A stretch of 29,528 nt of DNA. Source: a virus. Made by a program: the position numbers and the translations under genes. Under the pieces are notes generated by a model. The model saw only the letters and a list, made by a program, of their open reading frames with translations. It was not told the DNA's origin and searched no databases. The DNA lies in the IMG/VR virus record IMGVR_UViG_3300042507_002011, positions 1-29,528 of that record; one strand, 5' to 3'. Of this stretch, positions 1-12,863 are shown one piece after another (position 1 is the stretch's first letter; each line of letters opens with the position of its first letter).

Positions 1-1
1 A

Positions 2-850
2 GCGCAGTCTCTTATTCTCGGCGCAATGCGCGATCCTGCGATTGCAGAAAGTCCTGAATATGCGATTGCATTTAATCGCATGTTCGGCCCGAAGCTGGTG
101 CAGGCTTTCAACCCTGCAACGCAGCAGATGGAATACACATACACGACGCCTCCTCTTCCGGCTGGCGTCATTCCTCCGCGTGGCATGGCGCAAGCTCCGG
201 CAGCTGGTGGCGCGCCGCAAGCTGGCGCTCCGGCAGCGCAAGGCGCTCCTGCTCCCGGCACAACAGCTCCTATCATCTCGCAGCGTCCGCCAGAGCCGAA
301 GCCTCTGACGGAAGATCAAGCGCGTGCAACAGGCTTCGCAAAGCGCATGGTCGAAGCATCTGCGATCCTCGATCCTATGGACTTCGGTGATGCAGCAAAG
401 CCGGGGACACTTGAAGCGATTATCGGTCCGCGTGTTGGTCAGATCGGGTCGAACTTGATGCGGAGCAACGATCGTCAACTCTATCGCCAAGCTCAGGAAA
501 ACTGGGTTCGCGCAAATCTTCGTAAAGAGAGCGGCGCGGTCATTGGTCCTGAAGAAATGCAGAAGGAAATCGAAAACTATTTCCCGCAGATTGGTGACGG
601 TCCCGGTGTCATTGAGCAGAAGCGTCGTTCGCGTGAAGCGGCAACGCAGGGAATGATTACCTCTGCCGGTCCCGGTGCTGAACGTGCCGGCATCAAATTC
701 AAACCATACGAGCCTCCGTTTGAAGTCAAGATCAAGGCTCTGCCTCCGCAAGAGCTGTTGCAGCTTGATACGACAGGGCTGACTGATGCACAGAAAGCAG
801 CCTATCTCGCACGCTTGCGTGAATTGAACATCGGTGGAGGTCGTCGCTAA
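2..850 (+). CDS. Virion-internal (ejection-type) structural protein, 5'-truncated
   Basis: The reading frame is open to the left edge, so the annotated Met at 26 is probably internal and the true start lies outside the window. The N-terminal third of the visible part is low-complexity, rich in Pro, Ala and Gly. The second half carries a block (around ENWVRANLRKESGAVIGPEE and NYFPQIGDG) that I recognise from large internal or ejected proteins of tailed phages. It overlaps the next gene by one base (TAATG), so the two are co-translated. Role in DNA ejection is inferred from position and that block; no enzyme motif is visible. Confidence 0.6.
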   Translation, partial: AQSLILGAMRDPAIAESPEYAIAFNRMFGPKLVQAFNPATQQMEYTYTTPPLPAGVIPPRGMAQAPAAGGAPQAGAPAAQGAPAPGTTAPIISQRPPEPKPLTEDQARATGFAKRMVEASAILDPMDFGDAAKPGTLEAIIGPRVGQIGSNLMRSNDRQLYRQAQENWVRANLRKESGAVIGPEEMQKEIENYFPQIGDGPGVIEQKRRSREAATQGMITSAGPGAERAGIKFKPYEPPFEVKIKALPPQELLQLDTTGLTDAQKAAYLARLRELNIGGGRR

Positions 851-2547
851 TGGCTGAGAAACTTGATTACGACGAACTCATCCGCAAAGAGCGTGAAGCT
901 CTCATGCAAAAGTCAAACAGCGGCATGTTCGACAGCCTTGCTCGCGGTGCTGGTCTTGCCACTCGAGCTGTTGCGCCGATCGTCGCTGGCGGCGCTGCTG
1001 GCGCTGCTATGGGTGCGCCGCTTATGGGCGTGGGTGCTATCCCCGGCGCGATCGCTGGTGCAACGGCGGCTGCATTTGCTGAACCGCTTTCTGATCTTGC
1101 TGTGTCTGCATATAACTATTTCACAGGAAGCGATCAGCCAAAACCATCGCAGGCGATCGACCAGCTGTTGACAAGCGCAGGCGTGCCGGCTCCTGAAAGC
1201 GCGCAAGAGCGTCTTGCATCGACAGCCTTGCGTGCTGGTGCAGAGACGATGACAGGCGCTCGCACGGCTCGCATGGCAGCTGACGCCTTGCCGCAGATGT
1301 CACAGGTTGCGCGTCCCGTTATGGAAACGCTTGCAACTCAACCAGCCTTGCAGACTGCTGCATCCACAATCGGCGGCGTCACAGCGCAAGGTGCGCTTGA
1401 AGCCGGCGCTCCTCCGGCCTTGGCTCTTCCGGCTGGCGCTGTCGCCGGTTCTCTGCCGTTCATGGCGCGTCCCGGCAACTTCTTCCCGAACACGGGTGGA
1501 GAAATTCGCGCTGCAAACGTCCGCACATTGCAGGATGCAGGCATCCCGATCACTCCCGGTCAGGAGCTTGGCAATCCTGCGGCGCAAGTGACCGAAAGCG
1601 TCATGCGGTATCTGCCAACATCTGCGCCGACTGTGGCGCGTGTCGAAGATCAGCAGATGCGTGCGTGGACGCGCAATCTGTTCAAACAAGCAGGCATCGA
1701 AAGCGACATCGCTACGCCTGAAGTGCTGAACAAGGCGCGTCAGGATTTTGGGAAACGGTATGACGCGCTTGAGGCAAAAACGTCACTGAAGGGTGACGGC
1801 GATCTGTTCAACGATCTGCTTCAGATTGAGCAGAACTATGTCGTGGGCTTCCCCGATACGGTCAAGCCGACATACAAGGCGCGCGTTGATGAAGTTCTGA
1901 AATACGCAGCCGGCGAGAAATCCGCAGACGGCAAGACATATCATCGCCTGCAAAGCCAGCTCTCCGAAGAAATCGCCCGCGCAAACCGCAGCACGGAGCC
2001 GTGGGCGGCGTATTACGGCGAGGCGATGCAGGGCCTTCAGGGTGCTTTGGCAAGAGCGATGGAGCGATCTGCTCCTGAAGGCTTGCGCGATGAATGGCGC
2101 ACGCTCAACAAACAGTATGCGATCTTCTCGCGCATCGAGGACACTATGGCGCGAGCTGGTAACGATAAGCTGAACACTGGCTTCATTCCGCCTCAGCAGA
2201 TCGGTGCCGTCGAGCGCGCTCGCAACCCGCGTCAGTGGGTTGAGGGCGGCAACGACTTCACGAACCTAGTTCGCGCTGGTGCAGGCGTGTTGCCTGATCC
2301 CGTTCCGAACTCTGGCACGGCGCAACGCAGCTTCGTCCAAGACCTTTTGACGGGTGGCAAGCGTGGGGCTGCTGCTGGTGCTGGCTATGGTGCAGCGCAA
2401 GCATCCGGCGTCACTGCTATTGATCCGGCGCTTGCTTTGGGCCTTCCGTATCTGGTCTCAAAGGGTTGGTATGCTCCCCGCCTTCGCCCTGAAATTCAGG
2501 GGCTTCTCGGAGCGCAGGCGATCCGTGGAGCTAACGAAGCAGATTAA
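850..2547 (+). CDS. Large virion-internal or DNA-ejection-type protein
   Basis: 565 residues. Residues about 30-75 form a Gly/Ala-rich hydrophobic stretch (repeated GAA/GxxxG steps), and a second one lies near 500-530. Such stretches are typical of phage proteins that leave the virion and insert into or cross the host membrane. The middle is charged and helical. The start overlaps the stop of the preceding gene by one base. It is the last gene of the left late operon and is followed at once by a strong terminator. No catalytic motif was recognised. The structural role is inferred from order, composition and the upstream ejection-type gene. Confidence 0.55.
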   Translation: MAEKLDYDELIRKEREALMQKSNSGMFDSLARGAGLATRAVAPIVAGGAAGAAMGAPLMGVGAIPGAIAGATAAAFAEPLSDLAVSAYNYFTGSDQPKPSQAIDQLLTSAGVPAPESAQERLASTALRAGAETMTGARTARMAADALPQMSQVARPVMETLATQPALQTAASTIGGVTAQGALEAGAPPALALPAGAVAGSLPFMARPGNFFPNTGGEIRAANVRTLQDAGIPITPGQELGNPAAQVTESVMRYLPTSAPTVARVEDQQMRAWTRNLFKQAGIESDIATPEVLNKARQDFGKRYDALEAKTSLKGDGDLFNDLLQIEQNYVVGFPDTVKPTYKARVDEVLKYAAGEKSADGKTYHRLQSQLSEEIARANRSTEPWAAYYGEAMQGLQGALARAMERSAPEGLRDEWRTLNKQYAIFSRIEDTMARAGNDKLNTGFIPPQQIGAVERARNPRQWVEGGNDFTNLVRAGAGVLPDPVPNSGTAQRSFVQDLLTGGKRGAAAGAGYGAAQASGVTAIDPALALGLPYLVSKGWYAPRLRPEIQGLLGAQAIRGANEAD

Positions 2548-2573
2548 ATCCAACCTATTGCGATCCGTTACCC

Positions 2574-2601
2574 GAACCCCCTGCAAAGGGGGTTCTTTTT
2601 T
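2574..2601 (+). terminator. Rho-independent terminator of the left late operon
   Basis: A perfect 8-bp stem, GAACCCCC / GGGGGTTC (2574-2581 with 2588-2595), has a 6-nt loop TGCAAA and is followed by six T residues (2596-2601). It lies 26 bases after the stop of the preceding gene. This is the clearest terminator in the window. Confidence 0.93.
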
Positions 2602-2715
2602 GCACTTACCGCATCGCTGATTGCACGAAAATCAACTAGATAGCACACGCGGGCGGTTCTCACATGAAGGTGGGATATCACTCTAAGTGCATTGATATCA
2701 TTGCATGTTAGTGAA

Positions 2716-2753
2716 GGCTTTACCCGAAACCGTTACCCGGCACGGGTAAAGCC
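2716..2753. repeat. 11-bp inverted repeat just past the integrase stop
   Basis: GGCTTTACCCG (2716-2726) and CGGGTAAAGCC (2743-2753) are perfect inverses separated by 16 bases that contain another GTTACCCGG. Read from the integrase side it could form a hairpin, but no T-run follows on either strand. A protein-binding arm site is therefore at least as likely as a terminator. Confidence 0.6.
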
Positions 2754-2759
2754 GGGTCA

Positions 2760-3836
2760 TTACCCGTTCACGATGCGATCCATGCTGTCGGCAAGCTCTT
2801 GATCGTCGCCTGTCAGGACGCCGGCATAGACGGTCATCGTCACCTCGACGTTCGCATGACCTAGACGCTCGGAGACAGCCTTCAGCGGCATCTTCTCGCG
2901 CAGCAGATGTGTGGCATGAGCGTGACGGGTGGAGTGCAGGCAATAGCCTTCGTCGAGGCCGATCGCACGCAGGGCGTCTTTCATGGCGCTGGTCATGTAG
3001 GACAGCGTCGGACGATCGCCCCAAACGGTCTGAAGGACGTGCTTGTCTGGCTTGCCAGATGCCGCCTTCAGCTCATCCCATAGGGACTTTGGCATGCGGA
3101 TGGAGCGCACGGATTTGGCCGTTTTGGGCTTCTTCTCGTATTCGCTCGCGCCGACGCGAACAACCGTTCTGGCGACATGGATGATGCCGGTCTCGAGGTC
3201 GATGTCGGACCAGCGCAGGGCGCACATCTCGCCACGACGCATGCCTGTGGCAAGGGCCAGACGGACCATGCGGCCAAGGAACGGCTTGTCTGCTGCGTAA
3301 GCAAGCAGCGCCTTGATGTGGCGCTTCTCAAGCGGTTTGCGGGCTTCGCTGTCGCCTTTGGGAGCGGAGACCCGCTTCATCGGGTTCTTGGTCAGGACGC
3401 CGGCTGTCACAGCCTGATTAAACATGGCTTTGAGATGGTGATGCGTGATCGTCATCGTCCCGGCAGCAACCTTGCGGATGCGGGTCAGGTAGAAGTCCTC
3501 AATGTCGTCCTTGGTGATGTCACGCAGGCGGCGTGAGCCGTAGTCGGCAAGAAACGGCTTGATGAGGTTTTCTTGGCTCTGGAAGGTCAGCTCGCTGATC
3601 TGGTTGAGGGCGACACGGCGGTTCTGCCATTTCGTCCAGTGCTGCTTCACGGTGTCGTCCGTGATGTGGACGAGATCGCCGGAGCGGTGATCTTTCAAGA
3701 TTTCGATCTTGCGGGCCTCGGCATCAAGCGCCGTGCCTTTTAGCGTCTCGGTGCGGAACTTCCGCTTGCCGTTCTCCTTGGTCTCGATGCGGATGCGCCA
3801 GACGCCGGGGCTACGTTCAAACAGGGTCACGTTCAT
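2760..3836 (-). CDS. int: Tyrosine-family site-specific integrase
   Basis: 358 residues from the chosen ATG at 3836, which has a good Shine-Dalgarno (GGAGAAA, 6-nt spacing); an upstream in-frame Met at 3890 lacks one. Residues 1-50 resemble an arm-binding N-terminal domain, about 65-160 a SAM-like core-binding domain, and about 170-345 the catalytic domain. Catalytic residues are visible: Arg in ATGMRRGEM (about R200), a Lys in the KTAKS hairpin, HSTRH (H301/R304), GHANV (H327) and Tyr337 in TVYAG. It should integrate and excise the phage DNA by recombining attP with a host attB. It is transcribed leftward towards the putative attP, and its promoter carries one of the 17-bp operators. Length and motif order are normal for phage integrases. 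Confidence 0.97.
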   Translation of the reverse strand: MNVTLFERSPGVWRIRIETKENGKRKFRTETLKGTALDAEARKIEILKDHRSGDLVHITDDTVKQHWTKWQNRRVALNQISELTFQSQENLIKPFLADYGSRRLRDITKDDIEDFYLTRIRKVAAGTMTITHHHLKAMFNQAVTAGVLTKNPMKRVSAPKGDSEARKPLEKRHIKALLAYAADKPFLGRMVRLALATGMRRGEMCALRWSDIDLETGIIHVARTVVRVGASEYEKKPKTAKSVRSIRMPKSLWDELKAASGKPDKHVLQTVWGDRPTLSYMTSAMKDALRAIGLDEGYCLHSTRHAHATHLLREKMPLKAVSERLGHANVEVTMTVYAGVLTGDDQELADSMDRIVNG

Positions 3837-3861
3837 GGGTTTCTCCTTCCCGTTACCCCGA

Positions 3862-3890
3862 ACAATAGTCGTCTTGTGTGCTAGACGCAA
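3862..3890 (-). promoter_or_regulatory. Integrase promoter (TTGCGT - 17 bp - TATTGT)
   Basis: On the minus strand TTGCGT (3890-3885) is followed after exactly 17 bp by TATTGT (3867-3862), 26 bp before the int start codon. The -35 box is the outer half of a 17-bp palindrome, so a bound regulator would block RNA polymerase. A copy of GTTACCC (3852-3858) lies between the -10 and the Shine-Dalgarno. Confidence 0.65.
3874..3890. promoter_or_regulatory. 17-bp operator-like palindrome, site C
   Basis: TTGTGTGCTAGACGCAA; its reverse complement begins TTGCGTCTAG, identical over ten bases to the site at 6071. It matches that site at 14 of 17 positions. It covers the -35 box and spacer of the integrase promoter. 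Confidence 0.6.
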
Positions 3891-3895
3891 GCGGT

Positions 3896-3924
3896 TTGTG
3901 TGTGGCGCGCAGCTATGGCATAAA
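3896..3924 (+). promoter_or_regulatory. Candidate promoter for the 3950 gene with a degenerate operator
   Basis: TTGTGT (3896-3901) is followed after 17 bp by CATAAA (3919-3924), 25 bp before the start codon of the rightward gene. The 17-mer at 3896-3912 (TTGTGTGTGGCGCGCAG) matches the operator family at 12 of 17 positions and is centred 22 bp from site C. The divergent int and 3950 promoters may thus share one regulator. Confidence 0.4.
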
Positions 3925-3949
3925 GGGACGGTTTTGAGGGGCTAGAAGC

Positions 3950-5899
3950 ATGGCCGAAGTTATCGAACTCGTCAGAAACGCGATCCGCTCCATCTCCGAA
4001 AAGACGAGGCAGGACGCCTATCGTCTTTTGGTCGATGGCGGCATGAAGCCAGAAGATGCGGCGCGTAATGCTGACCGAGTTGCGGACAAGGTAAAGATGC
4101 GTTCTGCCGTGGCTGCTGCCGTCCCGACGATGGGCGGGCAGCTGGTCGAAGGCGCAATCGACAGCGCGCAGTTCTTCGACGACGCAATCCGTGGTCGTGT
4201 GCAGCCTTCTCTGCTTGATCCAGAGACGGGCGAGACCGTCAGCAATCCGGCTTACACAAGAGGCATCCTCGACCTAGCCATGAACATTGGCACGCCGTCG
4301 ATGGCTCGATCCGTCACACGCGGAGGGCGCGTCGATCCGAACACGCTCGGCATCTTCGGCACGACAGACGCGCGCAAGGCTCCGCTCGAAACGCTCGACG
4401 CCGCAAAGGCGATGCAGAAGCAGGGCGCAGATGCGAATGACATCTGGCGGCAGACAGGATGGGGCTTCGACCCTACCGATCAGAAATGGAAATTCGAGAT
4501 CGACGACAGCGCATCGCGCGTCAGCGATCAATTCGCACAACGCGATCGTGGTCGTGGATTTACTGAACGCGGAAAAGTGAAGACGGTCGGTGAGGCTTAC
4601 GACCATCCAGAGCTATACGCGAACTACCCCGACACAGCTCGCACGCCTCTTGTGATGAACCGTGATGTGCAAAACAGCGCAACGGTTCGCGGTCTTTACG
4701 ACCATCGCAACAAAACGATGGACGTTCGTCGTGGCATGGATGACGAGCTGATGCGCTCGACATTGGCGCACGAAGCGAACCATAACGTGCAGGGCATTGC
4801 CGGCATGACGCGAGGCACAAGCCCCGAAGCTGCCGGCTCATACGAAGCCTATCGCTACAGCCCCGGTGAGGGCGGTCCGTTCGGCTCGTATAACGTCGAG
4901 AAGCGTTTGAGCATGACGGCAGACGAACGCCGTCGCACAACGCCTTTCCAGACAGCTGACGCAGACTTCGGCGGCTCGGTTCCGACAGGCGATGCGCCTT
5001 CGATGTCGGCTGGCCGTCCTCCGCGCATTGATCTCGGCGGTCCTCCTGTCAGCGGCATCCTTGATCTCTCGGGCCAGTATTCGCCCCGCAGCGGCCTGCT
5101 GGCTCCCGGCTCCGGCTATACGCCAGTTCCCGGCAAGCCGGGTGTCGTGACGATCCCCGGCATCGGTCAGGTCGAAGCGCGTCCTGTCGGACTGCTCAAT
5201 CAAGCTGCCGACGCATACATGGCGAAGACCGGCAACCCCGGCGCGCATCGAGCTGCATCGTTCCCTGAGTTCGACGAAGCGAAAGCTACGCGCATCGCCA
5301 ATGCTTTCGAGGCGATGCCGCACAACCCGTCTGACCCTGCCGTGAAGCGCAGCTATGACGCGCTGATCGACGAAACGCTGGCTCAAGGCCGTGCGCTTCA
5401 GGATGCAGGCGTCGATATTCGCTTCCTGAAGGAAGGCATGTCTGATCCTTATGCAAAGTCGCCGGCAATGGGATATGCCGATCTCGTCAAGAATAACCGT
5501 CTCTATGTGTTCCCGACAGACTTCGGCTTCGGCTCGAGCGCAGCTTTCGATCCGGTCGATAACCCGTTGCTGAAGGGCATCGGCAAGTTCGGTGATAAGC
5601 CGAACGCTGTGGCGAACGATGCCTTCCGTGCCGTTCACGATCTCTTCGGACACTTCGCTCCCGGCAATCCGTTCTTCCGCCACAAGGGCGAAGATCGCGC
5701 ATGGAATGTTCACGCTCGCATGTTCTCGCCGGAAGCTCGAGGAGCTATGACGACAGAGACACGCGGGCAGAACAGCTGGCTGAATTTCGGTCCTTATGGC
5801 GAGTTCAATAAGACGGCATCCGGCGCTGATACGCGCTACGCAGATCAGAAGATCGGGCTGCTGCCGGATTGGGTTTGGCGGGACGAAGAGTTCCGTTGA
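3950..5899 (+). CDS. Large polyvalent-type phage protein with a zincin-like HEANH motif and a conserved C-terminal domain
   Basis: 649 residues. Residues about 1-60 are helical. About 140-190 contains IWRQTGW...KWKFEIDDS, a signature I associate with domains of large phage polyvalent proteins. A metallopeptidase-like motif HEANH (274-278) sits in a typical setting, RSTLAHEANHNVQ. About 310-430 is a Pro/Gly-rich linker. The C-terminal 200 residues include AVHDLFGHF (562-570) and TETRGQNSW (601-609), highly patterned and probably enzymatic; I cannot name this fold. It stands alone between int and the early operon under its own putative promoter. Such proteins are often injected with phage DNA or act early against host factors; that role is inference. 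Confidence is high for the gene, moderate for the zincin, low for function. Confidence 0.75.
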   Translation: MAEVIELVRNAIRSISEKTRQDAYRLLVDGGMKPEDAARNADRVADKVKMRSAVAAAVPTMGGQLVEGAIDSAQFFDDAIRGRVQPSLLDPETGETVSNPAYTRGILDLAMNIGTPSMARSVTRGGRVDPNTLGIFGTTDARKAPLETLDAAKAMQKQGADANDIWRQTGWGFDPTDQKWKFEIDDSASRVSDQFAQRDRGRGFTERGKVKTVGEAYDHPELYANYPDTARTPLVMNRDVQNSATVRGLYDHRNKTMDVRRGMDDELMRSTLAHEANHNVQGIAGMTRGTSPEAAGSYEAYRYSPGEGGPFGSYNVEKRLSMTADERRRTTPFQTADADFGGSVPTGDAPSMSAGRPPRIDLGGPPVSGILDLSGQYSPRSGLLAPGSGYTPVPGKPGVVTIPGIGQVEARPVGLLNQAADAYMAKTGNPGAHRAASFPEFDEAKATRIANAFEAMPHNPSDPAVKRSYDALIDETLAQGRALQDAGVDIRFLKEGMSDPYAKSPAMGYADLVKNNRLYVFPTDFGFGSSAAFDPVDNPLLKGIGKFGDKPNAVANDAFRAVHDLFGHFAPGNPFFRHKGEDRAWNVHARMFSPEARGAMTTETRGQNSWLNFGPYGEFNKTASGADTRYADQKIGLLPDWVWRDEEFR

Positions 5900-5972
5900 T
5901 TTTCTGACGCCTTCTGCCATTCTCCCCTGACGGGTAGAGCCATGCTCCCCGTTGGCGCGTCCTCCCGACGCC

Positions 5973-6014
5973 GGGGGCGTTCTGTATCTCCTCTCCTCCC
6001 GACAGAACGCCCCC
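5973..6014. repeat. Perfect 13-bp hairpin with a pyrimidine-rich loop
   Basis: GGGGGCGTTCTGT (5973-5985) pairs perfectly with ACAGAACGCCCCC (6002-6014) around a 16-base loop containing TCCTCTCCTCC. No T-run follows, so it is not a standard terminator. It lies in the 240-bp gap after the 3950 gene and before the early promoter. It may end transcription by another mechanism, stabilise an mRNA 3' end, or be a structured RNA with an anti-Shine-Dalgarno-like loop. Confidence 0.6.
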
Positions 6015-6070
6015 ACCCCATTTCGGGCCGATCGGGCAAATCTTGAGCGTGATTTGATGTCGATTTCTCT

Positions 6071-6087
6071 TTGCGTCTAGGGCGCAA
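6071..6087. promoter_or_regulatory. 17-bp operator-like palindrome, site A
   Basis: TTGCGTCTAGGGCGCAA, with TTGCG/CGCAA arms around a CTAG-containing centre. Its first six bases can serve as the -35 of the early operon promoter; a weak -10, TATGTG, follows after 16 bp (6093-6098). It is almost identical to the site at 12452 (one difference in 17). Confidence 0.65.
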
Positions 6088-6139
6088 GGCGATATGTGTT
6101 GTGCATGGCGATCGACGGGATCGCTGCGAACAAGAGGAA

Positions 6140-6328
6140 ATGAAATTGAGCAAGTCGCCACTCGCACGCTACGCCAAAACTCTGAACACACTTTCGTCCG
6201 TCGATGTTGCGCGCATCTCATCAATGGTCCGTAAGGGCCATAGCGCGCAGGGCATCAAGTCAGAAACGCCTTTCACCTTGAAGCAGATCAATGCGGTCTT
6301 CGCATTGGTCAGCATGCAACAGCAATAA
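6140..6328 (+). CDS. Small early protein, unknown function
   Basis: 62 residues from ATG 6140, with an AAGAGGA ribosome site just upstream; a longer frame from 6071 would start inside the operator and is rejected. The product is basic and predicted helical (KLSKSPLARYAKTL...). It is the first gene after operator/promoter site A, so it would be among the first early products. A 12-codon reading frame at 6105-6143 overlaps its start codon as ATGA, a possible but unproven leader. I recognise no family. Confidence 0.7.
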   Translation: MKLSKSPLARYAKTLNTLSSVDVARISSMVRKGHSAQGIKSETPFTLKQINAVFALVSMQQQ

Positions 6329-6343
6329 AACAGGAGAGAAAAA

Positions 6344-6544
6344 ATGACACAGCTCAAGACATACGAAAACGTCTATGTGGCGATGGAGCAGCAGGCCGAT
6401 CGCACATGGCTCGTCTTCAACAAGGTTCGCGGCATCTACGAAGACCGCACCTTTCGCACCTATGACGCAGCGCGCAACACGATGGTCGAGCTGACAGAGC
6501 GATACAAGATCATCGCTCGCGGCAAAAACCCGTCATACGTTTGA
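6344..6544 (+). CDS. Small conserved-looking hypothetical protein
   Basis: 66 residues. A strong ribosome site (CAGGAGAG) precedes the ATG. The sequence alternates short strand-like and helical segments (TWLVFNKVRGIYED, then a basic helix) and contains no cysteine, signal or membrane segment. It is the second gene of the early operon, 15 bases after the first. No family recognised. Confidence 0.7.
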   Translation: MTQLKTYENVYVAMEQQADRTWLVFNKVRGIYEDRTFRTYDAARNTMVELTERYKIIARGKNPSYV

Positions 6545-6555
6545 GGGAGGGAGCA

Positions 6556-6909
6556 ATGACAGACACACCTACAAAACGCGACGGCAACGCCGAACTGCGC
6601 GAACACTGCGAACAGATTGCGGAGCGCCTTCGCACAGGCGTTTTCGATGACTTTGAGCCAGAGGAGGAGGGCGAAGAGCCAACAGCTTATGACTTCCTGC
6701 AAGACGCTCTCGACATTGAGTATGTCGTCAATACCAAAGGTGAATATCTCGGCGCTCGCGTTCTCGTTGCATTTGGCGGACCGAACATCTGGATCAACAC
6801 ACGCTCTGGCATGGTTGAAGGCGCATGGTGGGGAACGCGAGCAAATGTTCCGTTCTATGACGGCATAGGCTTAGACGACGCCTTAGAAGAACTCTGGAAC
6901 TGTCGCTGA
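6556..6909 (+). CDS. Acidic early protein, unknown function
   Basis: 117 residues from ATG 6556, placed behind GAGGGAGGG; a TTG five codons upstream is less likely. The first 55 residues are strongly acidic (FDDFEPEEEGEE). The second half is strand-rich with several Trp and Gly (GGPNIWINTRSG, VEGAWWGTRA). Small acidic early phage proteins often mimic DNA or bind host factors, but nothing here proves that. It ends 12 bases before the next gene. Confidence 0.7.
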   Translation: MTDTPTKRDGNAELREHCEQIAERLRTGVFDDFEPEEEGEEPTAYDFLQDALDIEYVVNTKGEYLGARVLVAFGGPNIWINTRSGMVEGAWWGTRANVPFYDGIGLDDALEELWNCR

Positions 6910-6921
6910 GAGGAACAACAA

Positions 6922-7227
6922 ATGCGCTCTTTATCTCACGGTGAATTTATCAATGCGGTGCAGGCCATTCGTGGCCGCACCGATCTCTCAGAGCGTGAAC
7001 GCGCTCGTCGCATCAACAAGCTAATGGAGGAGCAACGTGGCAACAAACGAGATGATCGCTCGATCGAGGGCAATCTTAATGGCTCGAGCGGCGATTACTG
7101 CACGCGACAAGAAGGAGGAGCCTCGTTTTATCAAACGTCGAAAGAAATCCGTGTCCCACACATCCTCTGGATCGCCCTGTTCTGGTCGATCGTGATGATG
7201 TTCATCGCAGAAAACTTTATTCCGTAA
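6922..7227 (+). CDS. Small protein with a C-terminal membrane segment; possible frameshifted pair
   Basis: 101 residues in one frame, with AGAGGA upstream of the ATG. The N-terminal 40 residues look natural (charged helix, SERERARRINKLMEE). The C-terminal HILWIALFWSIVMMFIAEN is a convincing membrane helix. The stretch between (about residues 45-75) looks like out-of-frame sequence, whereas another frame there, starting GTG 7037, reads naturally. This may be two genes linked by a -1 shift or an indel. Treat the 101-residue product with caution. Confidence 0.5.
   Translation: MRSLSHGEFINAVQAIRGRTDLSERERARRINKLMEEQRGNKRDDRSIEGNLNGSSGDYCTRQEGGASFYQTSKEIRVPHILWIALFWSIVMMFIAENFIP
7037..7195 (+). 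CDS. Overlapping alternative reading frame with its own ribosome site
   Basis: 52 codons from GTG 7037, preceded by GGAGGAGCAAC. The first 37 residues (MATNEMIARSRAILMARAAI..., ending in a basic KRRKK) look like a genuine helix leading to a positively charged membrane-anchor flank. The last 15 residues look out of frame. A -1 shift near 7140-7160 would join the basic stretch to the membrane helix encoded in the 6922 frame. It may be the real start of a small membrane protein. Confidence 0.4.
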   Translation: MATNEMIARSRAILMARAAITARDKKEEPRFIKRRKKSVSHTSSGSPCSGRS

Positions 7228-7245
7228 CAGAAGGAACCCTATGCA

Positions 7246-7770
7246 ATGTTTCCAGCACAAGTCGTCATCACAGCTCTGAATAAAGCCGGATCGGTCGCAG
7301 AACTCGCGCGTCAAATGGGCGTGATAGAGCAGACCGTCTACAACTGGCTGAACTACAAACACTGTCCATCTGCTCCGCGCATCGACGATCTGCTTGCGTT
7401 CATCGAAAACACACCGCGCAAGAAAAGCGCATGGGAGATGCGTCAGGAGGAAATCGAACTTCGCTCACATCGCGCACCAAAAGTCGTCGTAGAGGAGGAG
7501 CCAGTGCGTGCGTATAAGCCGGAGCCTGTTGCGCCGATCGAAAACAAGCCGTGGAAGCAGCTCGTCGAAATCACGCGCATCAGCGAAAGTCTGAAATTCT
7601 CATTCGGCATCACGGATGAAGCGAAGGTCGTTTTCATCCCGCCATACCTCACTGACAAGCTGAAGGATGACAATGTTCAGGACGGCGACGAGATCACGCT
7701 GATTGTCCGCGACAACGATCATCCGAACGCCGATCTCTTCGCGCTCAAGTGGATTGAGGAGGACGAGTGA
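7246..7770 (+). CDS. Helix-turn-helix protein with a C-terminal beta-rich domain
   Basis: 174 residues. Residues about 8-45 form a Cro/CI-like helix-turn-helix (SVAELARQMGVIEQTVYNWL). A basic, Pro-rich linker follows to about residue 100. The last 70 residues (SLKFSFGITDEAKVVFIP..., VQDGDEITLIVRDND) look like a small beta barrel, possibly OB-fold; that is a pattern judgement. A ribosome site (AGAAGGAA) precedes ATG 7246. It is a candidate regulator or nucleic-acid-binding protein of the early operon. Target unknown. Confidence 0.7.
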   Translation: MFPAQVVITALNKAGSVAELARQMGVIEQTVYNWLNYKHCPSAPRIDDLLAFIENTPRKKSAWEMRQEEIELRSHRAPKVVVEEEPVRAYKPEPVAPIENKPWKQLVEITRISESLKFSFGITDEAKVVFIPPYLTDKLKDDNVQDGDEITLIVRDNDHPNADLFALKWIEEDE

Positions 7771-7964
7771 TGGCGATCGAAGTTCGCAAGAACGCCGATG
7801 GGTCTTGGACCGTCTTCTATTTCGGCAAGGAAGCCGGGTTCATCGAACCTGTCCGCATCAACAGAGCAGAGCGCACCTATCGTGCAGTCAGCGTGCATGG
7901 TCGCCTGACGCACACCTACACGCTCGAGGGCGCAAAGCAATTCGTGATTGAGAACTACGCATGA
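7770..7964 (+). CDS. Small hypothetical protein
   Basis: 64 residues. The start ATG 7770 overlaps the stop of the preceding gene (TGATG) behind GAGGAGGAC, and its own stop overlaps the next start (ATGA), showing tight translational coupling. The product is strand-rich (SWTVFYFGKEAGF...) with one terminal helix. No family recognised. Confidence 0.7.
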   Translation: MAIEVRKNADGSWTVFYFGKEAGFIEPVRINRAERTYRAVSVHGRLTHTYTLEGAKQFVIENYA

Positions 7965-8395
7965 CGAACTGGACAGAACATTACAAACAGGTCCGCGCGC
8001 GTCTCAACAAGACAGCGCAGATCAAGAAGGTCGCGCCTCGCAAGCCGATCGAAGACTACGTCTTGCCTCGCCCGCTGCCGGAGACGCCGCAGTCGATCGA
8101 GGAGCAGCAACGCAAACGGATGAAGGGCTGTCCGCTCTCTCTGCGCCGGCAAGGTCTCGTCCTGCCGATCTTGGAAGAGTTCGACATGACATGGGAAAAG
8201 CTGTGGGCAAAAGATCGACGCGCCGTTCTGATGACGCCTCGCCGCAAGGTCTGGCTGAAGCTGTGGGAAGACGGCATGTCGATCTCGCAGATCGGCCAGT
8301 TCACGCAGCGCGATCACACAACCGTTCTATGGGGCCTGCGGGCAATCAAGAAAGCACAATCGGAGGACAAGGCATGCACTACCGCGACACTCTAA
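7961..8395 (+). CDS. DnaA domain-IV-like DNA-binding protein
   Basis: 144 residues. The C-terminal segment, about 105-132, reads SISQIGQFTQRDHTTVLWGL, close to the signature helix-turn-helix of bacterial DnaA domain IV (RDHTTV followed by a helix). No ATPase domain is present, so this is the DNA-binding module alone behind a basic N-terminal region. In host DnaA this domain reads the 9-bp DnaA box. A perfect box (TGTGGATAA) occurs at 12420-12428 upstream of the replication genes. A role at an origin or as a DnaA competitor is inference. The start overlaps the previous stop. Confidence 0.75.
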   Translation: MTNWTEHYKQVRARLNKTAQIKKVAPRKPIEDYVLPRPLPETPQSIEEQQRKRMKGCPLSLRRQGLVLPILEEFDMTWEKLWAKDRRAVLMTPRRKVWLKLWEDGMSISQIGQFTQRDHTTVLWGLRAIKKAQSEDKACTTATL

Positions 8396-8769
8396 AGCAG
8401 GCTGTTGAGACGATGGACGAGAGGCAGAAGAAATATGCCTCGCCAGAAAAGAACTTCGCCCGCATCGCATCGCTCGCGTCGATCATGCTGAACCGCAACG
8501 TGACGCCGTATGAGATCAGCATGATCCATCTCTGCACGAAGCTGGCTCGGCACATCGAGACGCCGACATACGACGACAACATCCTCGACGGCGTGAACTA
8601 CCTCGCCTTTGTCGGGACATTCGCCGGACAACATTTCGATGGTCTTGGTGAGGTCCGTCGCGTCGAGATCGTTAAGGGCATGGAGGATGCGCTGCTGGCG
8701 CAGCTGGCAAAGCAGGCTCCCGTTCTGACGGAGGAGGAGTTGGCCTCTCTCAAGGAGGCTGCGACATGA
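8374..8769 (+). CDS. DUF6378-family phage protein
   Basis: 131 residues from ATG 8374, with CGGAGGACA upstream; it overlaps the end of the DnaA-like gene by 22 bases. The core matches the DUF6378 pattern: KNFARIASL, then PYEISMIHLCTKLARH, then DNILDGVNYLAF, a compact helical fold with conserved Lys/Asp/Asn residues. The family is common in phage early regions and its biochemical activity is unknown. A longer frame from 7948 is a shadow of the preceding gene. Confidence 0.8.
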   Translation: MHYRDTLKQAVETMDERQKKYASPEKNFARIASLASIMLNRNVTPYEISMIHLCTKLARHIETPTYDDNILDGVNYLAFVGTFAGQHFDGLGEVRRVEIVKGMEDALLAQLAKQAPVLTEEELASLKEAAT

Positions 8770-8999
8770 AGAGCCTGATCGAACAGTTTGAGTTCTTGGC
8801 GCGCACATCGCAAGACCCTGTCGATGCACAAGGCTTCAGGGTCGCCGTCGAAGCCTTGCAGATGTGCCAGAGGGCGCTTGAGTTTTATTCCTGCAACTGC
8901 CAGCTTCCTTGCACGGAGCAGCAATACAAGGACAGTCCTTGCGGCATGCGTGCGAACTCAACACTGAAAGCGATGGCAGATGGACGAACAAACCATTAA
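8766..8999 (+). CDS. Small cysteine-containing hypothetical protein
   Basis: 77 residues. The start overlaps the previous stop (ATGA). Residues 1-40 are helical; the second half holds CNC, PC and PCGM cysteines (about 43-60) that could bind a metal. It overlaps the next gene by 20 bases. No family assigned. Confidence 0.6.
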   Translation: MKSLIEQFEFLARTSQDPVDAQGFRVAVEALQMCQRALEFYSCNCQLPCTEQQYKDSPCGMRANSTLKAMADGRTNH

Positions 9000-9234
9000 C
9001 GCCGACTTCAGCAGCAACGTGCGCGTTCGCTGCGCGCAGATTGCAAATGTCGTCATCACGCTCGCTGAGAACATCAGCGACCACACAGAAACACCAACAT
9101 GCGCTGTCTTTCAGGAAATCATAAAGGCAGCTGTTGGAGCCTTATACGTCAATGGTCACGAAGACTGCGCCGATGCTTTGCTCGCCGCGTTACTCGAGAT
9201 CAATGACATTCCCGAAGACGCCAGCATCAACTGA
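8980..9234 (+). CDS. Small helical hypothetical protein
   Basis: 84 residues, starting inside the 3' end of the preceding gene. It is predicted mostly helical, with three cysteines and an acidic C-terminus. The start has only a weak purine stretch (GATGGCAG). It is an early operon member of unknown role. Confidence 0.6.
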   Translation: MDEQTINADFSSNVRVRCAQIANVVITLAENISDHTETPTCAVFQEIIKAAVGALYVNGHEDCADALLAALLEINDIPEDASIN

Positions 9235-9246
9235 AGGAGAGGAAAG

Positions 9247-9405
9247 ATGCGCCGTTTATTGACTGCACTTGGACTGACTGTGTTCCTACTGGCCCCGACT
9301 GTCGCTGTCGCCTGTTCGACATCGACCTATTTCGTGAACGGCAAAGTGATCGTCTGCGTGACGTGCTGCCAGAACGGGCAGAACTGCTCGACGGTCTGTT
9401 CGTGA
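9247..9405 (+). CDS. Secreted six-cysteine mini-protein
   Basis: 52 residues, absent from a simple long-ORF view. AAGGAGAGG precedes ATG 9247. A short basic N-terminus (MRRLL) and hydrophobic core lead to LAPTVAVAC, a good signal-peptidase site (AVA before Cys) and a near-lipobox. The mature part is about 30 residues with six Cys, including VTCC and NCSTVC, so it should fold as a disulfide-bonded or lipid-anchored periplasmic peptide. Phage envelope peptides of this kind can act in superinfection exclusion or lysis control; here that is inference. It lies between cytoplasmic early genes. Confidence 0.75.
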   Translation: MRRLLTALGLTVFLLAPTVAVACSTSTYFVNGKVIVCVTCCQNGQNCSTVCS

Positions 9406-9414
9406 GGTCGCGCC

Positions 9415-9654
9415 ATGATGAATGAATTTCATGCGTGGTTCAAAAGCGCGAAGAAAGGTTATCGCTACACCTACCATCGCGGTGATCTTGCGTTTGATCG
9501 TTATGCCCCATCACGGCATGAGCCGACAGTGAAGCAGCGCGAGCTAGGGTTCCTAGCTGACATGGCTTACGAGCTTTTCTACCAGCGCGAGATCACGCTG
9601 ATCCAGAAGAAGCATGCCGTGAATGACTACGAATACATTGCGGTGAAGCTATGA
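9415..9654 (+). CDS. Small hypothetical protein
   Basis: 79 residues, rich in Tyr, His and basic residues (GYRYTYHRGDLAF...). Two Met codons stand at the start (ATGATG); a GAGG lies upstream. The stop overlaps the start of the deaminase gene (ATGA), so the two are translationally coupled. No family recognised. Confidence 0.65.
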   Translation: MMNEFHAWFKSAKKGYRYTYHRGDLAFDRYAPSRHEPTVKQRELGFLADMAYELFYQREITLIQKKHAVNDYEYIAVKL

Positions 9655-10091
9655 CGAAGTGGGCGCAACGCTTCCTCGATCTTGCGGCGCATGTTGCAGG
9701 CTGGTCGAAAGACCCGTCAACGAAGGTCGGTGCTGTGGCTGTCGATCCGACATCACGCGCCGTCCTATCGACGGGATACAACGGTCTGCCTCGAGGCGTC
9801 GATGACCAGCCGTGCCGCATGCAGCGGCCCGGCAAATATCTATGGACTGCACACGCTGAAGAAAACCTCGTCGCACATGCGGCGAGGCAAACGCTTCACG
9901 GTGCGACGGTTTATGTCACGCATCTGTGCTGCGCCAACTGCACACGGATGCTCATCAATGCCGGCGTCAGAAAGATCGTGTGCGGTCCCGGTCTGACAAA
10001 TATGGAATACGAGAACTTCGTCGTCGCGCGACAGATGATGAAGGAAGCTGGCGTAGAGCTAGAAGTCGAAGATGTGCAGGAGGGGAAGTGA
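9651..10091 (+). CDS. Deoxycytidylate (dCMP) deaminase
   Basis: 146 residues. It shows the zinc-dependent cytidine-deaminase core: HAEEN (H68, E70) and CxxC at C94/C97 (HLCCANC), with STKVGAV and GYNGLPRG typical of the dCMP branch. The usual Pro before the first CxxC cysteine is replaced by Cys. It converts dCMP to dUMP in the cytoplasm, feeding dTMP synthesis for phage DNA. No thymidylate synthase or dUTPase is visible in the window, so it probably feeds host enzymes. It is flanked by overlapping small genes. Length is normal for the family. Confidence 0.93.
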   Translation: MTKWAQRFLDLAAHVAGWSKDPSTKVGAVAVDPTSRAVLSTGYNGLPRGVDDQPCRMQRPGKYLWTAHAEENLVAHAARQTLHGATVYVTHLCCANCTRMLINAGVRKIVCGPGLTNMEYENFVVARQMMKEAGVELEVEDVQEGK

Positions 10092-10315
10092 TGGCTGGTA
10101 AGCGTATGCACTACGGTATCGGATCGTATGAAAGCGCACTCAAGTTAAATCGGGAGCTTCTTCTCCGCTTGCGAGAAAAGGATGAGATGAACTTTTCGAT
10201 TAACCGCTACATAGAAACGGCTGCGCTTGATAACTTGTTGCCGCCAGAGCCTCGCCGCACCAACGCCGTTGGCATCCCATTGATCCGCGCCGCGCTTGGG
10301 GAGGGGAAGGAATGA
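10091..10315 (+). CDS. Small hypothetical protein
   Basis: 74 residues. The start overlaps the dCMP deaminase stop (TGATG) behind GGAGGGGAA. The first half is a charged helix (SALKLNRELLLRLREKDE); the end is Gly-rich. No family recognised. It is co-translated with the deaminase and the following gene. Confidence 0.65.
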   Translation: MAGKRMHYGIGSYESALKLNRELLLRLREKDEMNFSINRYIETAALDNLLPPEPRRTNAVGIPLIRAALGEGKE

Positions 10316-10545
10316 CGCAAAAAACAGATGTCGTCCTTCGCATGCGTAAGGGTGCTGAAGTCGTCGATCGGCATCGCTTTCCGATGGTGTATCAGACCTA
10401 CACGGAAGCAGCCGACGAGATCGAAAGGCTGCGGCGTGACAAGGAGCGCGCGCTGGCTGCGCTGCGATATTTCAAAACAGGAAACTACAAGCAGCGTTTT
10501 GAGGTTCGCTACGCAGCCGAGTGTGCAATAGAGGAGATTGAGTGA
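10312..10545 (+). CDS. Small charged helical protein
   Basis: 77 residues. A GAGGGGAAGG ribosome site and an ATGA overlap define the start. It contains a long charged helix (about 30-55, DEIERLRRDKERALAAL) likely to dimerise as a coiled coil. No enzymatic motif. Unknown early function. Confidence 0.65.
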   Translation: MTQKTDVVLRMRKGAEVVDRHRFPMVYQTYTEAADEIERLRRDKERALAALRYFKTGNYKQRFEVRYAAECAIEEIE

Positions 10546-10643
10546 TGAGCAACATCACGCTGAGTTTTTTCGTTGTGGCAATAGCAGCGGCGGCAGCTGT
10601 TCTGATCGTCGTGCTGGTGAAGGAAATCATTGATGTCGAATAA
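10545..10643 (+). CDS. 32-residue single-pass membrane peptide
   Basis: ATG 10545 overlaps the previous stop (TGATG). Almost the whole product is one Ala/Val-rich hydrophobic helix (FFVVAIAAAAAVLIVVLV) ending in KEIIDVE. It could be a holin-like or regulatory membrane peptide, but it sits among early genes far from any endolysin, so function is open. It overlaps the following gene by 11 bases. Confidence 0.55.
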   Translation: MSNITLSFFVVAIAAAAAVLIVVLVKEIIDVE

Positions 10644-10845
10644 TTGCTCGTCGTGCCGATACTATCGCGGCACATCTATCGGCTCATGCCACCGCTATCC
10701 GCAAACGGTGAAGGTGGCGTCCGCGCACTGGTGCGGCGAATATGCTGCCGTCGATCTGCCGAAGGTCGAGCCGATCGTCAGCAAGAAGGGCAAGTCACGT
10801 CTTAACCTTCGCCCGCTTCCCCCCGAGGATGGCGATCAACTCTGA
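10633..10845 (+). CDS. Small Cys4 zinc-ribbon-like protein
   Basis: 70 residues from ATG 10633. It has the pattern CSSCRYYRG, SCHRYP, then HWCGEY, matching the small phage proteins with a CxxC-(loop)-CxRYP-(loop)-WCGE layout. A relative of the same design is at 16376-16597. It likely binds one zinc; target unknown. Its 3' end runs 51 bases into the convergently transcribed repressor gene, so it is the last gene of the early operon. Confidence 0.7.
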   Translation: MSNNCSSCRYYRGTSIGSCHRYPQTVKVASAHWCGEYAAVDLPKVEPIVSKKGKSRLNLRPLPPEDGDQL

Positions 10846-11199
10846 CGCCGTTTCAGACGAAACGTCCTGACACATCAGCACGCGCACGACGCCGGGTTCT
10901 TGCACTGTCATGCTGAACGTGCCGACAGCCGGCGCTGTGTTCTCAACATGAACGGACGGCTCGACGCGCCGTCCCTTCAACCCTAATCCTTTCGCCAAGT
11001 CATCTAGGGAAATCCCGATCATTGTGGCGAGCGTCACAGCACGCGACAGCGGCGGATCGACGCCTTCCTCACCAGAGATAAATCGAGACACGCTCGGATC
11101 AGCAATTCCCCATGCGCGCGCAAGGTCGCGCTGCGAATAACCATGCTGCTTTAAAGCATCTCGTATCCAGCCATTTGTCTCGTTTTTTCGCGTGTTCAT
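10795..11199 (-). CDS. CI-like transcriptional repressor without a protease domain
   Basis: 134 residues, the only leftward gene besides int. Residues about 15-70 form an HTH_3 domain (YSQRDLARAWGIADPSVSRFI, then a capping helix pair). The C-terminal 60 residues are short and lack the Ser/Lys LexA-type peptidase, so self-cleavage by RecA is not expected. By position (opposed to the early genes, divergent from an excisionase-like gene) it is the best candidate for the lysogeny repressor. The start codon has no clear Shine-Dalgarno and a possible -10 (TATTCT) lies only 18 bases upstream, implying a very short leader, as seen for some phage repressor mRNAs. Confidence 0.75.
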   Translation of the reverse strand: MNTRKNETNGWIRDALKQHGYSQRDLARAWGIADPSVSRFISGEEGVDPPLSRAVTLATMIGISLDDLAKGLGLKGRRVEPSVHVENTAPAVGTFSMTVQEPGVVRVLMCQDVSSETASELIAILGGKRAKVKT

Positions 11200-11200
11200 T

Positions 11201-11271
11201 TTGTGCCGTTTGTGCGGAGAATACTTATGCGCGCATCTTCTTCACGCTCGCTGTTGTGGGCTGGTTGCGGG
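11201..11271. promoter_or_regulatory. Repressor/excisionase intergenic region with TTGTGC-type direct repeats
   Basis: TTGTGC occurs at 11201-11206 and 11210-11215. TTGTGGG (11254-11260) and TTGCGGG (11265-11271) follow. These resemble half-sites of the 17-bp operator family but are not arranged as palindromes. They flank the 5' end of the repressor and the divergent gene and may be regulator binding sites. No full palindrome and no strong rightward promoter was found here. Confidence 0.35.
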
Positions 11272-11319
11272 TGCTGCACATTCTGTTTCCCCCAACACAC
11301 AACACGATTTTACGCTGTC

Positions 11320-11511
11320 ATGTCGTCCCTGTGCATAAGTGTGGCCGAAGCGGCCAAAGTTCTTGGCATCTCGAAACGAAGCCTCTACTCCTACATCGAA
11401 GCCGGAGTTTTCCCGTCCGTTCGCATTGGTCGTCGCATCCTGATCCGCAAGATCGACATGGATCGGATCGTTCACGGTCAGCAACAGCCGCAGCACCAGC
11501 AGACGCAATGA
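11320..11511 (+). CDS. Excisionase-family (HTH_17) DNA-binding protein
   Basis: 63 residues from ATG 11320; longer versions to 11203 read through non-natural sequence. The fold is a winged helix of the excisionase/MerR type: ISVAEAAKVLGISKRSLYSYI, then the wing VRIGRRILIRK. A Gln-rich tail follows. Such proteins act as recombination directionality factors or small repressors. Divergent placement from the repressor fits a Xis- or Cro-like role, undecided. No clear Shine-Dalgarno. Confidence 0.75.
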   Translation: MSSLCISVAEAAKVLGISKRSLYSYIEAGVFPSVRIGRRILIRKIDMDRIVHGQQQPQHQQTQ

Positions 11512-11834
11512 GCGTCCTCTGGTTCGTCGTCGGTCTGCTCGTCGGAAATCTGGTCGGCTTGTTCACGGCGGCGCTGATGTGCGCCAATGAGGAGGAGAGG
11601 AATGACAATCACACCGGGCGTCTACACGGGGATGCCAGCCCCCGACTATCACGCGATCGACGCGCTCTCTGCGAGCGGTGCGAAGCATTTACTGAGATCG
11701 GCAGCGCACTATCTCGCGCAGAAGGAAAAGCCGATGGAGCCGACAGCAGCGATGCGTCTCGGCACAGCGGTTCACACGATGATCCTCGAGCCGGAGAAAG
11801 CCGACACGGAGATCGCCCGCGCGCCGAAGGTTGA
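11508..11834 (+). CDS. Small membrane protein overlapping the exonuclease gene
   Basis: The start overlaps the previous stop (ATGA). The first 26 residues are a natural-looking membrane helix (VLWFVVGLLVGNLVGLF). From about residue 32 the frame runs 233 bases inside the exonuclease gene and the translation looks like out-of-frame sequence. Either the stop that normally ends a ~30-residue peptide here was lost, or the long tail is tolerated. Only the N-terminal part is well supported. Confidence 0.5.
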   Translation: MSVLWFVVGLLVGNLVGLFTAALMCANEEERNDNHTGRLHGDASPRLSRDRRALCERCEAFTEIGSALSRAEGKADGADSSDASRHSGSHDDPRAGESRHGDRPRAEG

Positions 11835-12414
11835 TAAGCGCACGAAGGTCGGCAAGGAAACGCTTGAGCTATTTGAGCGTGAGAACGCCGGCAAGCTCAT
11901 CCTTGATGCCGATGTCTACGACAAGGCTGCGGCAATCGCTGATGCCGTCTACAAGCATCCGCAAGCGCGCGAGCTGTTGAAGGATGGTCAGTCGGAAGTG
12001 TCGATGCTGTGGCAGGCGCATGGCGGTATCCCGTGCAAGGCGCGCTTTGACTATTACAAAGGCGACGGGATCATCGACATCAAGACGACGCAAGACGCAT
12101 CGCCTGATGGTTTCGCCCGCAACATCGCTGGCTTCAAATATCACATGCAGGCGGCGCACTACCTTCAGGGCTATCGTGAAGTCACGGGATGGGACGCTGA
12201 CCATTTCACGTTCATTGCGGTGGAGAGCGAGCCTCCCTACGCGATCGGCATCTACCGGCTCGACGAAGCCAGCCTGCACACAGGCCGCATGCTGATGGAG
12301 AAGGCTGCTGCCGCCTTCAGGCAGGCGAACGAGCCTTCCGTCTGGCACGGCTATTCGCCCGACATCCAGACGATCTCGGTGCCTTCGTGGGCGCTGCTGG
12401 ACCCCGCTTGGTAA
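11602..12414 (+). CDS. RecE-like PD-(D/E)XK exonuclease
   Basis: 270 residues from ATG 11602, directly behind a GGAGGAGAGG ribosome site. The nuclease core is visible: GTAVH (54-58), Glu at SEVS (132), KARFDYY (K146, D150), IIDIKTT (D159, K161) and a QAAHY motif (Q183-Y187) typical of RecB/RecE-type nucleases. It should resect double-stranded DNA ends to give 3' single strands for phage recombination. No separate RecT/Beta-type annealing protein was recognised; the SSB-like protein at 13373 may partner it. Same direction as the resolvase and SSB-like genes. Confidence 0.85.
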   Translation: MTITPGVYTGMPAPDYHAIDALSASGAKHLLRSAAHYLAQKEKPMEPTAAMRLGTAVHTMILEPEKADTEIARAPKVDKRTKVGKETLELFERENAGKLILDADVYDKAAAIADAVYKHPQARELLKDGQSEVSMLWQAHGGIPCKARFDYYKGDGIIDIKTTQDASPDGFARNIAGFKYHMQAAHYLQGYREVTGWDADHFTFIAVESEPPYAIGIYRLDEASLHTGRMLMEKAAAAFRQANEPSVWHGYSPDIQTISVPSWALLDPAW

Positions 12415-12419
12415 AAAGC

Positions 12420-12428
12420 TGTGGATAA
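12420..12428 (-). promoter_or_regulatory. Perfect DnaA-box sequence (TTATCCACA on the minus strand)
   Basis: TGTGGATAA immediately after the exonuclease stop is the exact reverse complement of the consensus DnaA box. It lies 3 bp from operator B1 in a 93-bp intergenic gap ahead of the recombination and replication genes. A second exact box at 18704 is inside a coding sequence. Confidence 0.45.
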
Positions 12429-12430
12429 GT

Positions 12431-12468
12431 TTGCGCCCTAGGCGTCAGTATTTGCGTCTAGAGCGCAA
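12431..12468. promoter_or_regulatory. Tandem operators B1 and B2, centres 21 bp apart
   Basis: B2 (12452-12468) is TTGCGTCTAGAGCGCAA, one base different from site A. B1 (12431-12447) is TTGCGCCCTAGGCGTCA, matching the inverse of site A at 14 of 17 positions. Centres at 12439 and 12460 are 21 bp apart, two helical turns, as expected for cooperating dimers. The TTGCGT of B2 can act as a -35; the -10 is weak (TCTAGC, 16 bp spacing). They precede the small HTH gene at 12508. Confidence 0.65.
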
Positions 12469-12507
12469 GGCGTTCTAGCTAACACAAGCGAAGCAGGGAG
12501 TGTCGCA

Positions 12508-12732
12508 GTGATTACCGAAATTCAGTCAGCCGAAGACATCGTTCGGTTCATCGAGAAAGAGCGCGTCAGGCAGGGCCTATCGCAGCGAAAGCTGTGCGCC
12601 GATGCTGGCCTGTCGCATGGAGCCTATTGGTTCGTGAAGAACAATGGTGGCGGCATCCACCTAGACACAGCATTGCGGCTTCTCGAGGCTGTCGGCGCTG
12701 ATGTGCTGGTCGAGGTGGAGCCGCAGCAATGA
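12508..12732 (+). CDS. Cro-like helix-turn-helix regulator
   Basis: 74 residues from GTG 12508, behind GCAGGGAG. It is a single HTH_3 domain (LSQRKLCADAGLSHGAYWFV, about 24-43, followed by a helix ending VGADVLVEV). Proteins of this size are Cro-type repressors or antitoxin-like regulators. It is the first gene after the paired operators B1/B2, so it may regulate itself and the other sites. No toxin partner is adjacent. The stop overlaps the next start (ATGA). Confidence 0.75.
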   Translation: MITEIQSAEDIVRFIEKERVRQGLSQRKLCADAGLSHGAYWFVKNNGGGIHLDTALRLLEAVGADVLVEVEPQQ

Positions 12733-12863
12733 GTTGGATGTTCTTTTCAATGGCAGCTCTCTACACCGTGATCGGCGTGTGGAATGACATCGACGGAGCA
12801 GTTCCTCGCAACTGGACGATGTTTGTCTCAGCTGCTCTGTTTGTATTGGCAGGCTTCCAATGA
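12729..12863 (+). CDS. 44-residue membrane protein
   Basis: The start overlaps the regulator stop and the stop overlaps the resolvase start (both ATGA). It has two short hydrophobic segments (MFFSMAALYTVIGVW and FVSAALFVLAGF) around a polar turn with DID and NW. It is a hairpin-like membrane peptide of unknown role. Tight coupling on both sides supports it as real despite its size. Confidence 0.6.
   Translation: MSWMFFSMAALYTVIGVWNDIDGAVPRNWTMFVSAALFVLAGFQ

Follow-up and report, generated by a model that had tools for sequence, protein, structure and literature searches.

Why does a phage carry a gene of polyvalent type as a unit of its own between its integrase and its early genes, and on what does the gene product act? 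The question is raised by the open reading frame (ORF) at 3950-5899 of the virus record IMGVR_UViG_3300042507_002011, whose 29,528 bases were analysed in full and are called the window here. The portal and capsid proteins match the Pfam families of SU10 (PF23899, E 4e-199, and PF17236, E 2e-96, respectively), so the window phage is an SU10-like podovirus, and, as it has an integrase (PF00589), it is probably temperate. The left end of the window consists of two genes, the second of which matches a “DNA ejection protein” PHROG; this gene is followed by a terminator-like hairpin, the integrase gene on the minus strand, the divergent ORF, and then early-type genes. The original prediction had placed the ORF between the integrase and early genes, and the place proves to be conserved in relatives as well, with the junction of integrase and ORF kept in synteny in two of them, L003 and L004. 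A comparison of positions 1-12000 of the window with deposited phages found no close DNA relative. The features around the ORF are as follows.

2574..2595, plus strand: strong terminator-like hairpin, 3′ of the ejection-protein gene
2760..3838, minus strand: tyrosine integrase, divergent neighbour of the ORF (PF00589, E 1e-22; start likely at 3838)
3870..3887, no strand assigned: operator-like dyad CGTCTTGTGTGCTAGACG between integrase and ORF, a zero-mismatch copy
3896..3924, plus strand: candidate promoter TTGTGT-N17-CATAAA
3950..5899, plus strand: polyvalent-type ORF of 649 aa, with LPD23, zincin and C-terminal HDxFGH domain
6074..6091, no strand assigned: second copy of the operator-like dyad, upstream of the next plus-strand operon
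12455..12472, no strand assigned: third copy of the operator-like dyad

A candidate regulatory signal is the dyad, CGTCTWG-N4-CWAGRCG, whose zero-mismatch copies in the window are found only at 3870, 6074 and 12455, each preceding a transcription unit, and of which 300 simulated windows contained none. Since the first two sites served to define the pattern, independent support comes from the third site and from L003 and L004, which carry corresponding sites, the first of them with one or two mismatches; with a tolerance of three mismatches, the dyad is no more frequent than by chance. The dyad lies 62 bases 5′ of the ORF start and at a similar distance ahead of the next operon, a placement suggesting a regulator that the ORF probably has in common with the early operons, and not with late genes. 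The candidate promoter was read by inspection, a consensus scan having given no report there, and the same hexamers and spacing are present in L004. A helix-turn-helix (HTH) protein encoded at 7246-7770, with weak YdaS and CII-type matches, is a candidate regulator for the operator-like sites. The ORF lies outside the late operon, behind the terminator, so that its protein is only a candidate for packaging into the virion.

The protein had been described from its letters as being of polyvalent type, with a patterned domain (IWRQTGW/KWKFEIDDS), a zincin-like HEANH and a further domain, and this description is borne out, since LPD23, a zincin and the C-terminal domain are found in one ORF. Several unrelated effector-type domains, of the types described by Iyer et al., are thus combined in a single polypeptide. 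The patterned domain is LPD23 of Pfam, an accepted match (66.2 bits against a curated cut-off of 27). All three domains are under purifying selection, with dN/dS against L004 of 0.10 for LPD23, 0.11 for the zincin and 0.11 for the C-terminal domain; the linker has a value of 0.31, and residues 1-60 have 0.92. Structural matches of residues 1-60 in the N-terminal model, to MscS and similar entries, are helix-hairpin matches and were dismissed. The N-terminal and central parts are laid out as follows.

4352..4522, plus strand: LPD23 domain, residues 135-191 (Pfam PF18838, E 2.2e-18)
4526..4954, plus strand: zincin-like metallopeptidase domain, residues about 193-335 (family alignment, AF2, VIA-align)
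4769-4783, plus strand: HEANH, residues 274-278, the HExxH of the zincin family alignment
4868-4870, plus strand: E307, candidate third ligand, at the conserved GE in the family alignment

Several lines of evidence support a zincin-type fold, and hence a predicted peptidase, for the region around HEANH. Relatives of residues 121-380 are encoded at 300 places on viral contigs, and their alignment has the common motif HExQH..[IV]Q..EGFA.GG ... RLAGEVEARN; the window protein reads HEANHNVQ ... PGE, retaining both His residues, the catalytic Glu and a later Glu, E307, which the alignment marks as the candidate third ligand. An AF2 model of this part (mean pLDDT 76.8, and above 90 in much of the core) places strands at 233-237, 248-251 and 256-260, followed by a helix at 265-284 that holds HEANH, so that HExxH lies on a zincin-type helix preceded by a three-stranded sheet, contrary to what would have spoken against the prediction. 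The best Foldseek match of the zincin-region model has E 0.6, which is not significant by itself, and a DUF6782 metallopeptidase match (PF20573, E 6e-4) stays below its curated cut-off (19.5 against 27 bits). Most of the structural matches that VIA-align returned across residues 162-336 are zincins of diverse, mutually unrelated kinds, namely IrrE, PprI, a M. tuberculosis regulator that contains a zincin, selecase, Wss1 and ArdC (Z 4.4-5.4). Pseudomonas phage vB_PaeM_USP_25 has an identical order of LPD23 and zincin within a protein of 4899 aa, right before the holin and lysozyme. Polyvalent proteins are delivered early, and their zincins have been proposed to process the polypeptide itself (Iyer et al. 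2017, PMC5512222). As in those phage proteins, LPD23 and a zincin MPTase are here fused with a further enzyme-like domain; the window protein differs from them in its length of only 649 aa, in forming its own transcription unit beside the integrase, and in having a C-terminal domain without a Pfam name.

The central question is therefore what the C-terminal domain does. It has the following parts.

5090..5896, plus strand: unnamed enzyme-like C-terminal domain, residues about 381-649 (A1/A2 alignments; AF2; phrog_3170 match)
5636..5653, plus strand: HDLFGH, residues 563-568, with H563, D564 and H568 invariant in 51 sequences
5690..5713, plus strand: E581 ... H588, an acidic and a His position, both invariant, on the next helix (alignment; AF2 helix)
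5753..5779, plus strand: TETRGQNSW, residues 602-610, with E603 and Q607 invariant (alignment; helix 214-233 of the domain model)
5840..5851, plus strand: ADQK, residues 631-634, also conserved in a solo family of T7-like phages

Invariant or nearly so in an alignment of 51 sequences are H563, D564, H568, E581, H588, E603, R605, Q607, N608, Q633 and K634, and relatives of the domain are encoded at no fewer than 594 places on viral contigs and at 130 places in bacterial and archaeal genomes. With motifs nearly invariant in the alignment and relatives this numerous, the pattern in the C-terminal domain is not due to chance. AF2 yields a helical model of high confidence (pLDDT 91.3, pTM 0.90), in which the HDLFGH, GE..H and TETRGQ residues lie on three successive helices. 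Residue type and invariance suggest that H563-D564-x3-H568, E581, H588, E603, Q607 and Q633-K634 represent a metal-site pattern. As the original prediction had it, the domain could not be assigned: a scan of the 51 members against Pfam, and also NCBIfam, gave no family match, PDB sequence searches gave nothing significant, and PADLOC assigned no defence family to the window protein or to a bacterial trio. PDB sequence matches to a clostridial neurotoxin light chain, with E of 0.43 at best, were dismissed as chance. Foldseek returned no significant match for the model, VIA-align listed none of 721 chains with a Z of at least 2 (an oddly empty output), and a match to a known structural protein, which would have spoken against the prediction, was likewise absent from these searches. 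A match was found only to phrog_3170, at residues 554-614 with E 2.6e-14; it covers only the core of the C-terminal domain and carries no function. The domain could be one of the LPDs of PMC5512222 for which there is no Pfam model, for example LPD19 or LPD21.

Further homologs come from T7-like Pseudomonas phages (LKA1 ORF7, phi15 ORF2), where a solo, diverged form of the domain, phrog_7806, was found via BFVD. Profile-profile comparison of phrog_7806 with the C-terminal domain gave probabilities of 90-95% (P 1.6e-6 to 5.7e-8), the best of the decoy families reaching P 0.014 once one family that contains the C-terminal domain was set aside. Profile comparison thus shows the two to be homologous. 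They have in common the collinear motif N..FR..HD.(.)GH...E...[ED]T..Q...DQK; phrog_7806 differs in its length of about 160-190 aa, its solo state and its HDxxH spacing, in having Q in place of H588, and in having mostly D for E603, the last two differences counting against the metal-enzyme reading favoured below.

Two known metalloprotein families share letters with these motifs. If the C-terminal domain were a remote relative of the pterin-dependent aromatic amino acid hydroxylases (PF00351), it would be an iron oxygenase of the 2-His-1-Glu type, with H563, H568 and E603 as ligands, and would hydroxylate either an amino acid or the side chain of a protein. Bacterial PAH also reads HDLFGH and has a Glu further on, at a distance of about 40 residues as against 35 in the window domain, TPH and PAH chains recur among the weak Foldseek matches, and the hhalign P of 0.001 ranks above all decoy families free of the C-terminal domain. 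Against this, the hhalign probability is only 21% over 35 columns and is not significant, the Foldseek rows have E 1 or worse and TM of at most 0.20, no Pfam match was found, and a likeness to the hydroxylases is missing from the solo T7-like family (P 0.08); we consider this kinship unlikely. A Coq4-like metalloprotein (PF05019), with the motif HDxxHx11E, is suggested instead by the solo T7-like family, which reads FRxFHDxGHx11E, and by a P of 0.006, above the decoys, for the LKA family against Coq4. The hhalign probability for Coq4 is only 2-7%, amounting to a match of motif length and not a significant profile match, and the window domain has HDxxxH where Coq4 has HDxxH, so that this assignment appears very unlikely. 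Kinship with either family is only suggestive.

Additional evidence on the role of the domain comes from its phage contexts. Giant proteins of 1200-3600 aa carry it, among them a 3600-aa protein of a Halomonas prophage in which it is joined with InPase, LPD38, DUF7178 and ART-PolyVal, a further likeness to the polyvalent proteins of PMC5512222. In deposited phages, proteins of 3209 and 2803 aa with the domain lie among structural genes. A second group consists of phage proteins of 410-560 aa. To it belong those of the SU10-like relatives L020, L027 and L037, which share 44-53% identity with the window in portal, TerL and capsid and have the domain gene between TerL and portal; the C-terminal domain of the window nests in the clade of this second group (24 rows, support 98/90). 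The gene for phrog_7806 is gene 1 in vB_PpuP-Keeri and gene 2 in phi15 and BIM BV-99, in the early region. T7 Ocr and T3 SAM lyase occupy that first early place. In several T7-like phages (L287, L288), a 2OG-Fe(II) oxygenase gene lies near the early phrog_7806 gene. On Actinomycetota plasmids, the domain occurs in proteins of about 450-470 aa at three loci, with one domain gene near an ArdC-like gene and another near a telomere-associated protein gene.

The place between TerL and portal, together with the annotation of gp205 of Rhodococcus phage E3 as structural, could also mean that the domain serves the head mainly as a structural or ejection module, its conserved residues being there for the fold. 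An invariant pattern of His, Asp, Glu and Gln argues against such a module, as do free-standing bacterial proteins in operons with enzymes and the early solo versions, and we regard it as the least probable of the readings discussed here. A search of the open-access literature found no virion proteomics for any member of the domain family. The same two contexts, TerL-portal in SU10-like phages and gene 1 or 2 in T7-like phages, make “injected or early”, as originally predicted, a fair guess for the timing; the second half of that claim, an effector against defence proteins, fares worse, as the bacterial relatives indicate.

Stand-alone bacterial domain proteins have 220-305 aa and are found in two main types of operon. 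The first occurs in Bacteroidota and in alpha- and gammaproteobacteria (Aquimarina, Enterovibrio, Aureispira, Chryseobacterium, Ruegeria and Pelagibius), with an adenosylhomocysteinase-like gene adjoining or near and, in most operons, a DUF3293 gene also present. The adenosylhomocysteinase-like partner, about 350-410 aa long, matches the AdoHcyase NAD domain with E 1e-4 to 5e-11; models for adenosylhomocysteinase itself match it with E 1e-16 to 1e-24 and far under their cut-off, so it is a relative and not AhcY. In BD1-7, DUF3293 is fused to the domain, and Actinophytocola encodes an 812-aa triple fusion (L136:6756-9194), in which the HDxFGH domain is joined both with an adenosylhomocysteinase-like NAD domain and with DUF3293. 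No paper that mentions DUF3293 was found in the open-access literature. Conservation of the partners across phyla, together with fusion, provides strong evidence for a functional link.

The second operon type occurs in Actinomycetota (Nocardia, Streptomyces, Micromonospora, Actinomadura) and Paraburkholderia, where the neighbours are varying subsets of a SufS-like aminotransferase V, a SAM methyltransferase, a Cys/Met PLP enzyme, a homocysteine S-methyltransferase and SAHH. The cluster, seen at L163 (about 8000-13000) and at four other loci (L130, L135, L173, L175), looks like one for biosynthesis or recycling. At six Micromonosporaceae loci (L157, L159, L161, L168, L172, L177), a solo domain gene has as its divergent neighbour a gene of about 698 aa which, judged by eye, resembles an N6 DNA methylase. 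Judged from the genes present, the bacterial partners share a theme, the metabolism of sulfur amino acids together with the SAM cycle. SAM-linked genes are common and the partners differ between clades, so that the metabolic link is indirect.

Partners of this kind, enzymes of sulfur amino acids and SAM, point to a small molecule as target, and not a host defence protein. According to the original prediction, the whole protein would be an effector that cleaves or modifies host defence proteins, with the C-terminal domain directed at proteins. The intact active-site residues of the zincin and the early delivery of polyvalent proteins (PMC5512222) are consistent with an effector. The published view of such zincins is one of self-processing (PMC5512222), and in bacteria the C-terminal domain is accompanied by enzymes of metabolism around SAH, homocysteine, cysteine and SAM; the prediction is left unsupported in this respect, and we consider such an effector distinctly unlikely.

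We therefore favour, tentatively and at somewhat less than even chances, a metal enzyme, injected or made early, that acts on a small molecule of the sulfur-amino-acid or SAM type, is freed by the zincin, and is perhaps directed against SAM-dependent defence. The gene contexts suggest that the phage protein would be injected or made early. In the host, the zincin would process the polypeptide, in line with the literature (PMC5512222), and free the C-terminal domain, in which H563/D564/H568, E581, H588 and E603 would form a metal site. The freed enzyme would convert a small molecule of the sulfur amino acid or SAM-SAH-homocysteine group, as its bacterial partners suggest. More speculatively, a SAM-type cofactor would be lowered or altered, starving restriction, methylation or nucleotide-signal defence. 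With the recruitment of the domain by phages, its substrate may have changed. No described reaction was found for any member of the domain family.

A wider proposal, which we think unlikely as it stands, is that the domain defines a new metal-enzyme family whose substrates are metabolites of the SAM, SAH or homocysteine type; in bacteria it would serve metabolism, and in phages it would disarm SAM-dependent defence, either injected within polyvalent proteins or as the first early gene. If this were true, phages would have a second route beside T3 SAM lyase. The domain has hundreds of phage copies and many bacterial copies and is nameless in the libraries searched, and the bacterial operons and fusions point to concrete candidate substrates. 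Its presence in a head module, as a first early gene and in giant polyvalent proteins suggests a role for it when infection begins. If its function were solved, many phage genes would gain a name, and a small-molecule mechanism of anti-defence might come to light.
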